Made by a program: the position numbers and the translations under genes. From Oscillatoria salina IIICB1 (lineage in GTDB: Bacteria > Cyanobacteriota > Cyanobacteriia > Cyanobacteriales > SIO1D9), in contig NZ_JAAHBQ010000021.1 of the NCBI RefSeq assembly GCF_020144665.1, positions 1-64,000 on the forward strand: a DNA stretch of 64,000 nt, given 5' to 3'. Below, piece by piece: positions 4,150-10,373 of the stretch (position 1 is its first letter; each line of letters starts with the position of its first letter). The notes under the pieces were generated by a model. It made no database searches. It had not been told where the DNA came from and saw only the letters and a list, made by a program, of their open reading frames with translations.

Positions 4150-4370
4150 TTTGGGAATTGGGGATTGGGGATTGGTGATTGGGGATTGGCGATTGGTGAT
4201 TAGGGATTGGGAAGAGGGGGGAGACAAGGAGGACAAGGAGGACAAGGAGGACAAGGAGGAGGGGGGAGACAAGGAGGACGATAATACAAACTGATAAGGT
4301 GCTATTCCTAATCCCCAGTCCCCAGTCCCCAGTCCCCAATCCCCAGTCCCCAACTTTATATAGGAGCAAA
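4150..4370. repeat. Composite intergenic repeat between ndhE and leuC-like gene
   Basis: Second copy of the module order seen at 2228. GGGGATT units (4153-4190, alternating with GGTGATT) are followed by four tandem copies of the nonamer GACAAGGAG (4223-4258) and further purine-rich sequence. A short AACTGATAAGG segment precedes a C-rich array of CCCCAGT/CCCCAAT units (4312-4352). The G-rich left arm and C-rich right arm can pair. Both arms also fit G-quadruplex patterns, on the plus and minus strand respectively. Apparent open frames here come from the repeat and are not genes. Confidence 0.85.
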
Positions 4371-5698: not shown

Positions 5699-5877
5699 AA
5701 CTGGGGACTGGGAAGAGGGGGAGGACAAGGGAGACAAGGGAGAGGGGGAGAACAAGGGGGACAAGGAGGAGGATAAACTGATAACTGTTCACTGCTAACT
5801 GTTCACTGATAATTCCCAATCCCTAATCCCCAGTCCCCAGTCCCCAGTCCCCAGTCCCCAGTCCCCAATCCCTAATC
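5699..5877. repeat. Composite intergenic repeat ending at the symporter stop
   Basis: Third full copy of the composite module. It has a G-rich start (GGGGACTGGGAAGAGGGGG), a purine-rich GGAGACAAGG section and TAACTGTTCACTG/CTAACTGTTCACTG units. It ends in five perfect CCCCAGT heptamers (5828-5862) and CCCCAATCCCTAATC. The C-rich arm abuts the stop of the minus-strand symporter gene, so on that strand a run of GGGGACT units follows the stop codon directly. It lies between two convergent genes. Confidence 0.85.
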
Positions 5878-7375
5878 AATAAACTTGGGGTTGTTGTTCG
5901 GGAATTTCCAACTCTCGTTGTTGAAGTCTTCTTCCTCCTCCGGTTAACTTCGACACTGTAATGAAAGCGACTAAACCGACAAGAGGACTGATTAAAGTGG
6001 GAAAACCGTCAAAATCGCTGGTAAAAATGTTGTTTGGGATGTACAAAAGTGTATTGTCAATCCCGAAAGTTGTCGGCATCAAGACGAAGAAGATTAATCT
6101 TGTCAGCGTACCACTAAGGATACAGGCGATCGCGCCGAATCTGTTTGCATTCAGCCAATAAAGACCTCCCGCTAGGGGAACCAGCAACCCGGCAAAACCG
6201 ATGTCGAAGGCTAGCAAAAGCAAAATCCCTGTTTCTGGCACTTTCAAGGCGAAAAAAATGCCCAATGAGGTGATAACCACAGCCATGATGCGGGTAATTA
6301 ATAACAGTCTGTCTCCCCCGGCATTATGGTCATCGTGACGAACGCCGAGAATATTATGCGCCATCACCGATGAGGTTCCTAAAATTGCTCCGTCGGCAGT
6401 GGAAAGGGAAGCCGAAAGAATCGCCATAATCACCAAAAGACCGAGTATTGGGGGAACGACACCTTTGAGAAGTGAGAAAAGTAGCGGACCATCGGCGCTG
6501 ATACCAGCTTGGCTGAGAATATCGTTAGCTGAGAGGGCAAGAATAGAAAAAGGAACGCCGATAATAATTGTTCCCGCAGAACCAATTAAACAAGCTCTCT
6601 GGGCTGTTTCTGGGCTTTCCGCAGCAAATACCCGCGCCATAAAGTCAATTGCGACAATATCGCCTAATCCTAACGCGAGAAGCGTCGCCCAATTAATTGC
6701 TGCACCGGAAGCGGGGTTAGTGAGTTGTTCAAAAGCAAACGGACCGCTACCAGCCGGGATGTGTAGCCCAAAATTGATGGCAATAAAACCAATTAAGAGT
6801 AAAGTACCAAAAAAGGCGATCGCTACTTGAATCGCATCGGTATAAGCTACGGCGAATAATCCCCCACTGGCAGTATAAATCAAGACAATAATCGCAATTA
6901 ACATTACTCCCGCCGTGTAACTCGTTCCCAGAAAAGCTTCAAACAAATATCCTCCCGCAACCAGATTACCCGCTAGCAAAAATGAAAAGCTCAAAACCAT
7001 AATAATTGAAGCTATCCATTCAGTTTTGCGACAGTATTTAACCCGATAAAAATCCGGTAACGTAATTAAACCCATGCGGTTCATTGGTTTCGCAAAGAAA
7101 AGCGCCGTCATCAACAAACAAAGTGCTAAACCAATTGGTAAAGAAGCACCCGCCCAAAAGCCAAATTCCGCAGCCAAGTCAGTATTTCCTAAAGTAGCAT
7201 TAGAATCCACTGACTGTGCCATTAGCGTCGCTGCCGCCAACGGCAAAACCAAACCTCGTCCAGCTACTAGATAGTTAACACTATCGCCTTTAATTTGCTT
7301 TGCAGCCCAGACACCAATGCCTAGAGTTCCGAAGAGGAATAAAACAATTCCCCAAAAAAGAAGTTTATCTGTCAT
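5876..7375 (-). CDS. Sodium/solute symporter (SSS family), candidate guanidine importer
   Basis: Integral membrane transporter of 499 residues with about thirteen hydrophobic helices and the SSS-family pattern. It has an N-terminal GxWAAKQIKGDSxNYLVAGR segment, the first helix pair with MAQSVDSNATLGNTD, and the conserved STADGAILG region in the middle. These proteins couple Na+ entry to solute uptake; the substrate cannot be told from sequence. It is the last gene of the minus-strand run gdmH-hypA-hypB under a guanidine-I riboswitch, 95 bases after hypB. Import of guanidinium or a related compound is therefore the simplest inference. A strong hairpin in the upstream gap could uncouple its expression from hypB. 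Confidence 0.85.
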   Translation of the reverse strand: MTDKLLFWGIVLFLFGTLGIGVWAAKQIKGDSVNYLVAGRGLVLPLAAATLMAQSVDSNATLGNTDLAAEFGFWAGASLPIGLALCLLMTALFFAKPMNRMGLITLPDFYRVKYCRKTEWIASIIMVLSFSFLLAGNLVAGGYLFEAFLGTSYTAGVMLIAIIVLIYTASGGLFAVAYTDAIQVAIAFFGTLLLIGFIAINFGLHIPAGSGPFAFEQLTNPASGAAINWATLLALGLGDIVAIDFMARVFAAESPETAQRACLIGSAGTIIIGVPFSILALSANDILSQAGISADGPLLFSLLKGVVPPILGLLVIMAILSASLSTADGAILGTSSVMAHNILGVRHDDHNAGGDRLLLITRIMAVVITSLGIFFALKVPETGILLLLAFDIGFAGLLVPLAGGLYWLNANRFGAIACILSGTLTRLIFFVLMPTTFGIDNTLLYIPNNIFTSDFDGFPTLISPLVGLVAFITVSKLTGGGRRLQQRELEIPEQQPQVY

Positions 7376-7425
7376 AATAATTAATCCTGAGTCTGTTTTT
7401 AATTCGGATTCAGTGTTTGGAGTTT

Positions 7426-7472
7426 GGAGCTATCTGTAATCTTGGCAGGATGTGGGATAGCTCCTTTTTTTT
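7426..7472 (+). terminator. Hairpin with T-run on the plus strand, between hypB and symporter
   Basis: Perfect 9-base arms GGAGCTATC (7426-7434) and GATAGCTCC (7456-7464), then eight T at 7465-7472. As written it is a rho-independent terminator for plus-strand transcription. On the minus strand, where the operon runs, the same hairpin lacks a trailing U-run and would be only an intercistronic stem-loop just after the hypB stop. It may block antisense transcription into hypB or affect mRNA processing. Confidence 0.6.
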
Positions 7473-8169
7473 AAGCTGTAGCTAATTGTTTGGTTGGAGA
7501 TTTTTGCACTTGATTTCGCAACCAAGCGAACCAAGTTTCTAATCCCTCGCCTGTTTTCGCAGCTACAGGAATAATTGTGACGTGAGGGTTTATTTGCCGC
7601 ACGTTAAATTCAAGCTTTTCTAAGTCAATATCCAGGTGAGGCGCTAAGTCCATTTTGGTAATCAATAAGCAATCTGCTTCTTGAAACATAACCGGATATT
7701 TTAAGGGTTTATCTTCTCCTTCAGTCACGCTTAATAAAGCAACTTTCGCGTGTTCTCCGACTTCAAATTCTGCCGGACAAACTAAATTTCCCACATTTTC
7801 TACTAAAACAAGGTCGAATTCAGTCGGGTTATATTCATGGGCTAATCGATGAATTCCACCGGACACCATTTTTGAGTCAAGGTGACAGGAACGCCCGGTA
7901 TTAATTGCAATAACTGGAACGTCATATTGACGCAGGCGTTCGGCATCTAATTCTGTCGTCATATCGCCTTCAATTACTGCCATTTTCAATTCTTGATTTA
8001 AGGTGGCAAGAGTGCGTTCTAAAAGGACAGTTTTTCCGGCACCGGGACTACTCATAAGATTTAAACAAGTAATTCCCCATTCATCAAAATGAGCGCGATT
8101 ATGGTCTGCGCCTTGTTGATTAGCATGAAGTAAATTAATTTCTAAAGCGGCATCAAATGTTTGGTGCAT
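7471..8169 (-). CDS. hypB: HypB-like nickel GTPase, guanidine hydrolase activator
   Basis: SIMIBI-class GTPase that inserts nickel into a target enzyme. The P-loop is SPGAGKT (residues 41-47), with the HypB signature [19 protein letters not shown] in the middle and the base-specificity motif ITKMDL near residue 170. It lacks the His-rich N-terminal metal store of many HypB proteins. No hydrogenase genes are near; it sits between a HypA-like gene and a symporter downstream of gdmH. In Synechocystis the HypA/HypB-like pair next to the guanidine hydrolase Sll1077 is needed to load Ni2+ into it. This one is therefore inferred to serve gdmH rather than a hydrogenase. A divergent hydrogenase-type hypB is the alternative. 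Confidence 0.9.
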
Positions 8170-8215
8170 ATTCAGTTACCAGTGAACAGTTATCAGTTAT
8201 CAGTTATCAGTTTGA
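8168..8215. repeat. Short CAGTTATCAGT-type repeat
   Basis: TCAGTTACCAGTGAACAGTTATCAGTTATCAGTTATCAGT, the same decamer family as in the composite repeats, inserted just upstream of hypB between it and hypA. It adds to the spacing within the operon. Confidence 0.6.
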
Positions 8216-8332
8216 ACTTGGAAATCTAGCGAAAATCTTGCTTTTATAGGCTTTAATTGTTCGTATCTTTGTAGTGCAGGTATCTTGCCCGCTTTTGATT
8301 GATTTATTTATGAAAATCAAACATTTAACCAA

Positions 8333-8689
8333 TCATTGAGAATTACTATATTCCAAGCGATCGATTTTTAGTTCTCGTCCCGAACGGATATCTTCCATTG
8401 GCGAATGGCAAGTTGGACAAGCATAATGTAAGCCAATTTCTGGTTTATATTCTGCTTGACATTGATGACAAAAAGCAATCAAAGGTTTAGACTGAATTGC
8501 TAGTTTTGCTCCTGCTAAAAAGGTGTTTTGCGTTTGCACCTCGAAAGCAAATTCTAAACTAGCAGGTTCGACACAAGTGAATTCACCAACAATCAAGTGG
8601 ATTTTGTCGATTTTTGGCTGTTCTGGTTGACTTGAATACCAATCTCGAACCGTCATAATTAATGCTTTTGTCATGTCAGTTTCATGCAC
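8333..8689 (-). CDS. hypA: HypA-like nickel metallochaperone
   Basis: Small nickel-binding chaperone of 118 residues. The N-terminal Met-His-Glu that binds Ni2+ in the HypA family is present, as is the structural zinc site with two CxxC pairs (C74/C77 and C91/C94). It is encoded between gdmH and hypB on the same strand. HypA hands nickel to the HypB GTPase in hydrogenase and urease assembly. Next to a guanidine hydrolase, the known Synechocystis arrangement points to a paralogue dedicated to that enzyme. The gap to gdmH (76 bases) holds a palindromic repeat. Confidence 0.9.
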   Translation of the reverse strand: MHETDMTKALIMTVRDWYSSQPEQPKIDKIHLIVGEFTCVEPASLEFAFEVQTQNTFLAGAKLAIQSKPLIAFCHQCQAEYKPEIGLHYACPTCHSPMEDIRSGRELKIDRLEYSNSQ

Positions 8690-8734
8690 GTTTCACCTCG
8701 CTGTTAAATTTCACCTCAAACAAAAATTTATCTC

Positions 8735-8760
8735 TAGAGACGTTGCACGCAACGTCCCTA
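8735..8760. repeat. Palindromic repeat TAGAGACGTTGC...GCAACGTCCCTA
   Basis: Inverted repeat of 26 bases with arms TAGAGACGTTGC and GCAACGTCCCTA (one mismatch), six bases after the gdmH stop on the minus strand and before hypA. A related palindrome (TAGAGACGTAGC...GCTACGTCTCTA) is at 60814-60840. This resembles a dispersed cyanobacterial intergenic palindrome. Between two operon genes it could act as an mRNA-stabilising stem. Confidence 0.7.
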
Positions 8761-8765
8761 CATTT

Positions 8766-9959
8766 TTATTTCCACTCGGCTAATTCGAGTTGGGCTTCGG
8801 GATGAATATAAGCGGGTTTTTGCTGGCGAGGTAATTGTCCAGAAACAACTAAATGTGCCATCGTGTCACAAATTACGCGAGTCGCCATTAAAGACGTAAT
8901 ATCGCTAATATCATAAGGAGGTGAAACTTCTACAACTTCTAAGCCACAAACGGGCGCATTTTGGACAATTTTCTTGAGTAAATAGAGAGCTTCACGAGGT
9001 AGTAGACCACCCGGTTCGGGCCACCCGGTTCCAGGTACGAAACCAGCATCAATACAATCGATATCAAAACTAATCCAGACGCAATCTGTGCCATCTAATG
9101 CCCGCTCTAAGGCAAAGTCTGCCGCAGCATCTAGCCCCATTTCTGTAATATCGGTTACAGTTAAAATATTCGTGGCTCGTTCGCGACAAACTTTTACGCC
9201 TTCGCGAGGTACTTGCCAGCCACCAATTCCAAGTTGAACGAGGTTTTTTGCGGGGGCATTTTTAATGTTTGTAGCGTGAAACCAAGGGCAAGTGTGCATC
9301 CTTTCGTCGAGGTCTGTTTCTTGGGTATCGACGTGGCGATCGAAGTGAATTATACCTACTTTTTTATCTCCTAAATGGCGACAAATTCCGCGAACTGTGG
9401 GAAAACCAATGGAATGATCGCCGCCTAAAATTATCGGGAATGCGCCGGAACTAAAGACGTGGGCAACACCTTTGGAAATTTGATCGAAGGATTTTTCATT
9501 ATTAGCTGGAATGGTGAAAATATCGCCAACATCGCAAAGAGTTATTTGTTCGCGCAAATCTACACCTAATTCAAAATTGTAGGGTGTATAAAGGGCAGAA
9601 ATGCGGCGAATTCCTTGGGGTCCGAAACGAGTACCGGGGCGATAGGTGGTTCCGGAGTCATGGGGAACGCCTACAATTGCGACGTCGTAGTTCCCCACTT
9701 GACGTACATCTTCTAAATAGGGGGCTTTGAGGAAAGTGTTGATTCCGGCATAGTGGGGTAATTCGCCACGAGAGAAGTTAGGAATGCGGCGATCGCGGAT
9801 ACTCTCAGCCGCTTCTAAACCATATTCTAAACCCCGATCTACTTCTTGTTGCCATCCTGTCAAAGGCAGTTTATTTTCTCGCTCTAAGGCGCGTTTGGCT
9901 TCGCTAGAATAGCCGTTATGATTACTGTTTGGCGGTTGAAATGGTGTATTTTCACTCAT
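8766..9959 (-). CDS. gdmH: Nickel-dependent guanidine hydrolase, GdmH type (ureohydrolase family)
   Basis: Hydrolyses guanidine to urea and ammonium. It is a 397-residue ureohydrolase with all metal ligands of the arginase/agmatinase fold: H182 (GGDHSIG), D207, H209, D211 (FDRHVD) and D299/D301 (SFDIDCID). Several positions differ from ordinary agmatinases: Arg in FDRHVD instead of Ala, and Trp313 in GTGWPEPGG. An extended N-terminus of about 80 residues is also present. These features match my memory of Synechocystis Sll1077, shown to be a Ni2+-dependent guanidine hydrolase. A guanidine-I riboswitch directly upstream and HypA/HypB-like genes downstream support this strongly. The ATG at 9957-9959 has a GAGGAG ribosome site. 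Generic pipelines would probably label it agmatinase. Confidence 0.93.
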   Translation of the reverse strand: MSENTPFQPPNSNHNGYSSEAKRALERENKLPLTGWQQEVDRGLEYGLEAAESIRDRRIPNFSRGELPHYAGINTFLKAPYLEDVRQVGNYDVAIVGVPHDSGTTYRPGTRFGPQGIRRISALYTPYNFELGVDLREQITLCDVGDIFTIPANNEKSFDQISKGVAHVFSSGAFPIILGGDHSIGFPTVRGICRHLGDKKVGIIHFDRHVDTQETDLDERMHTCPWFHATNIKNAPAKNLVQLGIGGWQVPREGVKVCRERATNILTVTDITEMGLDAAADFALERALDGTDCVWISFDIDCIDAGFVPGTGWPEPGGLLPREALYLLKKIVQNAPVCGLEVVEVSPPYDISDITSLMATRVICDTMAHLVVSGQLPRQQKPAYIHPEAQLELAEWK

Positions 9960-9990
9960 TCATTTTCTCCTCAAAAGTCACCTGAAATAG

Positions 9991-10170
9991 GAAAAAAGCC
10001 CAAGAGGTTGACGCGCCTGCTGATACGTCAATTCCTCCCGGGCTTTTTTCCCGCCGTGTAGCTACCAATGTAAGAAGTTCTTTACTGTTCTGACAAAAGT
10101 TTGTTTGGTAGCTTGCTTCTCTCGGACCTGTCACTTCCCGTATAAGTTTGGAAGTCGGAACCCTAGAAGC
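9991..10170 (-). promoter_or_regulatory. Guanidine-I (ykkC-yxkD) riboswitch with overlapping terminator
   Basis: On the minus strand the three conserved blocks of the guanidine-I aptamer appear in order. They are CTAGGGTTCCG (10166-10156), GGTCCGAGAGA (10128-10118) and ACGGCGGGAAAAAAGCCCGGGAGG (10058-10034 region). The last block overlaps an intrinsic terminator. GCCCGGGAGG plus an inner TTGACG/CGTCAA stem pairs with CCTCTTGGGC, followed by TTTTTT at 9997-9992. Guanidine binding should hold the 5' arm and prevent termination, so it is an ON switch as in the known class. It precedes gdmH by about 30 bases. Positions are read directly; the aptamer ends are approximate. Confidence 0.95.
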
Positions 10171-10373
10171 TTTGTTTAAAATGTAATACTTGCATAGTAT
10201 CAGTAGTATTTATCAAAAAAATGTATCGAATACTACGAAATATCAGTTTATTTGCCGCTAATTGTTGGCATTTGATGACTTTAAAGTTGGGGGCGATCGC
10301 GGGGGGTTGCCCCTATGCTTTGGATTTAGGCGTTTTTGTCAAGAGTCTATTTACATTTATTTATTATTTATTT

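Follow-up and report, generated by a model that had tools for sequence, protein, structure and literature searches.

A predicted Na+-coupled guanidinium importer of the sodium:solute symporter family, encoded behind a guanidine-I riboswitch in Oscillatoria salina IIICB1

Guanidine import is known from ABC systems of Synechocystis and enterobacteria (PMC12186494), and a permease of the APC superfamily has been proposed for the same role in comammox Nitrospira (PMC11410670). In Synechocystis PCC 6803, a guanidine-I riboswitch is followed by gdmH (sll1077), hypA, hypB and the three genes of the ABC importer, sll1080-sll1082 (PMC8390497). The stretch of DNA analysed here, a window of 64,000 nucleotides from Oscillatoria salina IIICB1, presents the same order of riboswitch, guanidinase gene and nickel-protein genes, but a single gene of the sodium:solute symporter (SSS) family stands where Synechocystis has three ABC genes (Table 1). 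The comammox permease, encoded beside a guanidinase and likewise associated with a guanidine-I riboswitch, resembles the predicted importer of the window in being independent of ATP; it belongs, however, to another transporter family, and the comammox regions lack the nickel chaperones that are present in the window (PMC11410670). A literature search whose scope did not extend to some key guanidine papers returned no report of an SSS-type guanidine importer, in agreement with the first-pass annotation of this DNA, which knew of no well-described one.

Table 1. Features of the guanidine locus in the 64,000-nucleotide window, in order of transcription.
Feature	Coordinates	Strand	Evidence
Guanidine-I (ykkC class) riboswitch aptamer	10033..10177	-	Rfam RF00442, 83 bits, E 2.7e-13
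Expression platform: terminator-type hairpin and T run	9988..10062	-	RNA fold -43.1 kcal/mol, z -7.45
gdmH, Ni-dependent guanidinase	8766..9959	-	Arginase family, E 2e-77; T105, H222, W313
hypA-type nickel chaperone	8333..8689	-	TIGR00100, 121.6 bits, above cut-off
hypB-type nickel-insertion GTPase	7471..8169	-	TIGR00073, 316.3 bits, above cut-off
SSS transporter, predicted Na+-coupled guanidinium importer	5876..7375	-	PF00474, E 1.9e-33; fold; context survey

Matches to RF00442, TIGR00100, TIGR00073 and PF00474 bear out the first-pass reading of the SSS gene as the last one downstream of a guanidine-I riboswitch, gdmH and its nickel loaders. The aptamer, whose score compares with a gathering score of 63, is the sole Rfam gathering-level match in the window and the sole guanidine-I RNA in the whole genome (5.96 Mb, 163 contigs). 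The platform hairpin takes in the 3' portion of the aptamer and the sequence that follows it; such a strong terminator-type structure, with its T run, is what would be expected for a transcriptional ON switch. The locus thus combines the two marks of a guanidine-I riboswitch regulon, an upstream RF00442 match and a terminator-type platform. Co-transcription from the riboswitch through to the SSS gene is plausible, since the gaps between gdmH and hypA, hypA and hypB, and hypB and the SSS gene are short (76, 163 and 95 bp, respectively) and the minus-strand terminator-like sites flagged in this stretch all fall within the SSS gene rather than between genes.

The GdmH protein of the window has T, H and W at positions 105, 222 and 313, as in the guanidinase signature T105, H222 and W313 defined in N. 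inopinata numbering (PMC11410670), and this numbering also fits in the motif context. The genome also has a urease at another site; with both enzymes encoded, the conversion of guanidine to ammonia is possible in principle.

The SSS gene has an ATG start and encodes 499 amino acids, of which residues 35-422 match Pfam SSF PF00474 with 116.4 bits against a gathering score of 22.8. This is the only Pfam match of the protein, with no ABC or APC family among them. None of the NCBIfam equivalog cut-offs is reached by the window protein, PutP (109 of 515.5 bits) and PanF (99 of 328 bits) both remaining far below, and general annotation goes no further than sodium:solute symporter. Its AlphaFold model (pTM 0.84, mean pLDDT 82.6, less certain in the TM1 region at about 60) shows a LeuT-type fold, the best structure matches being CHT1 and then SGLT, SiaT and NIS. 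By both sequence and fold, the closest solved structures are the human and bacterial high-affinity choline transporters (CHT1 and sfCHT, SLC5A7), DUR3 being more distant. Profile, fold and a conserved pair of hydroxyl residues at the Na2 site place the protein in the SSS family and predict Na+-driven uptake.

In this regard, the residues of the predicted pocket were mapped onto CHT1 through an alignment at about 22% identity, which falls in part on the low-confidence region of the model, with the roles of the Na2, Na3, choline-cage and chloride-loop residues taken from PMC11589582. The Na2 side chains S346 and S347 of TM8 in CHT1 correspond to S325 and T326, which are invariant in 79 relatives; Na3 is partly kept in cyanobacteria and haloarchaea (D180 and D328, but G329) and mostly changed in actinobacteria. 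Whereas these Na2 side chains, and presumably a cation as substrate, are common to both proteins, none of the five aromatics of the CHT1 choline cage is present: W62, Y91, W141, W254 and W406 read S55, L83, L133, A242 and L386 in the window protein, and the chloride loop VGGGY reads VDSNA. The cage aromatics are required for choline uptake by CHT1 (PMC11589582). On the basis of these pocket residues and of the curated PutP and PanF cut-offs, assignment as a choline or a proline/pantothenate transporter was rejected. The wider idea of a symporter for choline, proline or another solute whose gene stands beside guanidine genes by chance draws on the unspecific database label, the weak PutP and PanF scores and the choline transporter as closest solved relative, and it is opposed by the loss of the cage as well as by the genomic linkage described below.

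Two carboxylates would stand in for the chloride loop and the aromatic cage. D57 is invariant among the relatives and absent from the SSS paralogues of our survey; it falls in the stretch where TM1 is unwound and where Cl- is bound in CHT1. D239 occupies the equivalent unwound segment of TM6 and is Asp in 69 and Asn in 10 of the 79 relatives. The peptide DIVAIDFM was used to search for relatives, so that conservation at 239-246 is partly selected, with D57 unaffected. A third residue, D244, was set aside as a substrate-binding carboxylate: it is invariant, but several paralogues are also acidic there, and D244 and R248 are spaced like Asp256 and Arg260, the inner-gate pair of SiaT (PMC5931594), so that D244 was not assigned to the substrate. 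From these residues we infer a carboxylate-lined pocket suited to a planar cation and import driven by Na+, the predicted Na+ coupling resting on SSS family membership and the Na2-site residues.

Among 386 genomes of the phylum, a gdmH orthologue was found in 57 (83-100% identity, one in fragments) and an SSS orthologue in six (69-100% identity, the next SSS matches reaching at most 31%), and all six SSS carriers belong to the 57 gdmH carriers (Fisher p = 8e-6, phylogeny ignored). Two of them, G070 and G011, show the order riboswitch, gdmH, hypA, hypB, SSS gene; in G170 the SSS gene lies 109 bp behind a second guanidine-I riboswitch of its own, with gdmH and the ABC importer on another contig. 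As a control, paralogous SSS genes lie hundreds of kilobases from gdmH in eight single-contig gdmH-bearing genomes (G203, G255, G268, G270, G286, G289, G322 and G376). This distance, together with linkage found repeatedly, in both cyanobacteria and actinobacteria, to two unrelated pathways and behind separate riboswitches, leaves a chance neighbourhood next to no probability. In the same survey, many genomes of family f31, of about 2 Mb, carry strong guanidine-I riboswitches and no close GdmH.

No orthologue of the ABC binding protein was detected in the window's genome at E <= 1e-30. Across the phylum, a Synechocystis-type binding protein (at least 50% identity) occurs in 49 of 51 genomes with gdmH but no SSS orthologue, and in two of the six that have both; put the other way, the ABC importer is missing from four of six SSS-bearing versus two of 51 SSS-free gdmH carriers (p = 5e-4, phylogeny ignored). 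The two kinds of importer tend to replace each other. Strict mutual exclusion was rejected, given that both are present in G070, G170 and 19 of 40 collection genomes. A separate arrangement was seen in G027, a gdmH-bearing genome without the usual ABC binding protein, in which a second guanidine-I riboswitch precedes a different ABC binding protein and a permease (locus L156, about 6367-8878, contig C1).

The SSS family couples transport to inward Na+, and the window protein is an SSS protein with its Na2 side chains kept. Along with the tendency of its gene to replace an ABC importer, this makes export of guanidine or urea, as a relief from toxicity, highly improbable, even though guanidine riboswitches often govern exporters, for example Gdx (PMC12186494).

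A collection of 84,980 species was also scanned and yielded 195 confirmed relatives, the genomic context being taken from the best 80 of them; riboswitches in these loci were called with Rfam and a covariance model, as hand-written patterns missed many copies. About 40 other genomes, almost all cyanobacterial and almost all encoding gdmH, contain a close relative (68-81% identity). Within the best 80 of the 195, gdmH is present in 36 of 39 cyanobacterial-type genomes with the SSS gene, and the SSS locus itself is guanidine-linked in 27 of the 39. These 27 comprise 14 gdmH-hypA-hypB-SSS operons (one contig begins near hypB), two loci with gdmH nearby on the opposite strand and 11 in which the SSS gene directly follows a guanidine-I riboswitch. 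The remaining 12 loci show neither riboswitch nor gdmH in the stretch read, and 10 of these genomes encode gdmH elsewhere.

The 11 such loci among the best 80 of 195 relatives, together with G170 of the phylum survey, give at least 12 in which a riboswitch stands apart from gdmH and directly before the SSS gene. There, the aptamer leads into a terminator-type platform, with the start codon of the SSS gene 93-154 bp downstream (351 bp in L067); at L080, where the SSS gene diverges from the gdmH operon, both have a riboswitch of their own. These stand-alone loci carry the most weight because the guanidine switch precedes the transporter alone. Taken together, the survey that the first-pass annotation had proposed found a group that tracks gdmH, guanidine-I riboswitches or the guanidine carboxylase pathway, rather than one occurring mainly in unrelated contexts, and SSS paralogues that are not near gdmH; linkage across genomes and the 12 stand-alone riboswitch loci lend strong, if indirect, support to the candidate guanidine importer proposed there.

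Several loci of the collection depart from these patterns. In G409 (Hydrocoleum CS-953), the SSS frame has an in-frame stop (L086, 8001-9470), and neither gdmH nor a guanidine-I riboswitch was found in that genome; the stop may reflect decay of a transporter that lost its use, or an assembly error. In L067, a short gdmH-start-like stretch at 2019-2371, perhaps a remnant, lies between riboswitch and SSS gene, with an intact gdmH on another contig. A glutathione S-transferase-like gene separates gdmH from hypA in Xenococcus PCC 7305 (L063, 6154-6762). Two metagenome-assembled genomes have gdmH in pieces: L085, labelled Chloroflexaceae yet cyanobacterial-like and probably mis-binned, and L098, labelled Actinomycetota.

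The actinobacterial relatives (49-63% identity) extend the association to a second enzymatic route. All 16 found among the best 80 of 195 lie in guanidine contexts. In five, the SSS gene is directly behind gdmH (L098, L126, L128, L131 and L134), and a guanidine-I riboswitch precedes gdmH in three of these. The other 11 adjoin a urea/guanidine carboxylase and proteins of DUF1989, the family to which carboxyguanidine deiminase subunits belong; L137 and L140 show part of this set only, the stretch read ending soon after the SSS gene. The carboxylase route proceeds via carboxyguanidine and allophanate, and no urea is made. Asp occupies the positions of K. lactis 1330 and 1584 in all nine carboxylases readable at these diagnostic sites, and Asp1330 with Asp1584 is the mark of a guanidine rather than a urea carboxylase (PMC11410670). 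One transporter subfamily thus accompanies two enzyme routes that are unrelated except in dealing with guanidine.

These observations bear on the possibility of a DUR3-like urea transporter that would recapture, or import, the urea produced by GdmH. Such a role is suggested by DUR3 and UreA, SSS proteins of the same fold that serve nitrogen scavenging with an analogue of guanidine as substrate, and by GdmH itself being a source of urea. It is nevertheless very unlikely: urea as substrate is argued against by the 11 relatives with a carboxylase pathway, which makes no urea, and whose readable carboxylases have the guanidine signature; the controlling RNA is of a guanidine-sensing class; and no DUR3 chain was matched in phmmer or profile searches of the PDB, although DUR3 structures are present there. 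UreA, a urea transporter of fungi and a distant member of the SSS family, has a Ki for guanidine above 3 mM (PMC4077062).

The haloarchaeal relatives (n = 25 among the best 80 of 195, 55-63% identity) have, in 24 of 25 loci, a ureohydrolase within a few kilobases with 34-37% identity to GdmH. Its identification as GdmH was not accepted, as Trp313 is replaced by Glu and the active-site stretch differs. The conserved cluster (L099-L123 and L132) may represent archaeal use of guanidine or of guanidino compounds. In the haloarchaeal loci read in detail, an AbrB/PhoU-like protein is encoded between the SSS gene and the ureohydrolase.

A ureohydrolase without the guanidinase Trp at these 24 loci, and a guanidine riboswitch operon of Vreelandella that also degrades methylguanidine (PMC12508155), raise the question of whether methylguanidine or other related guanidino compounds are imported in addition to guanidine, or better than it, with a guanidino acid or amine as possible substrate in haloarchaea. 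For the window protein we consider this unlikely, because the bacterial neighbours are GdmH or carboxylases with the guanidine signature and the RNA switch is of the guanidine-I class. In a tree of the group, the members from cyanobacteria, actinobacteria and haloarchaea fall into supported groups that are well separated from the paralogues, with an unsure root owing to very long outgroup branches. We put forward only tentatively, and with some doubt, that a single SSS subfamily is dedicated to guanidinium import in all three lineages, with the buried carboxylates D57 and D239 binding the cation, and that the haloarchaeal cluster is an unrecognised system for the use of guanidine or guanidino compounds.

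Our preferred reading, to which we assign a probability of about 0.83 from sequence, structure prediction and genomic context, is that the SSS protein of the window is a Na+-coupled guanidinium importer feeding GdmH and urease, with guanidine serving as a nitrogen source. In the presence of guanidine, the riboswitch would let transcription pass the terminator, and read-through would lead to GdmH, the two nickel-insertion proteins and the importer being made together. The LeuT-fold transporter would bring guanidinium in together with Na+, GdmH would hydrolyse it, yielding ammonium as well as urea, and the latter would be split by the urease from another part of the genome. In this scheme, co-transcription, guanidine as the substrate, the inward direction, Na+ coupling and the carboxylate pocket are the parts that we infer, on top of the observed sequence features, linkage across genomes, predicted fold and conserved side chains of the Na2 site. 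The protein is strongly predicted to be a new functional variant in a known transporter family.

If so, guanidine import would gain a third transporter family besides the ABC and the proposed APC systems, one with no direct use of ATP, and a likely substrate would be given to proteins annotated only as sodium:solute symporters. The gene could serve as a marker for guanidine users without the ABC system and, being a single gene, could be used to equip engineered cyanobacteria for guanidine uptake. It would also pose the structural question of how a pocket related to that of choline transporters was rebuilt for a planar, hydrogen-bonding cation, while the haloarchaeal branch would open archaeal guanidine use to direct testing.

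Some further features were noted around the SSS gene. A stable hairpin, GGAGCTATC...GATAGCTCC, lies on the minus strand at 7426-7472, in the hypB-SSS gap (z -4.2). With a T run behind it on the plus strand, it could act in the termination of antisense transcripts or be an mRNA processing site. Directly downstream of the SSS gene, a GGGGACT-like 7-base unit occurs in tandem copies at 5815-5870, and similar short repeats are found at about 4150-4300, between the ndh genes and an aconitase-family gene.
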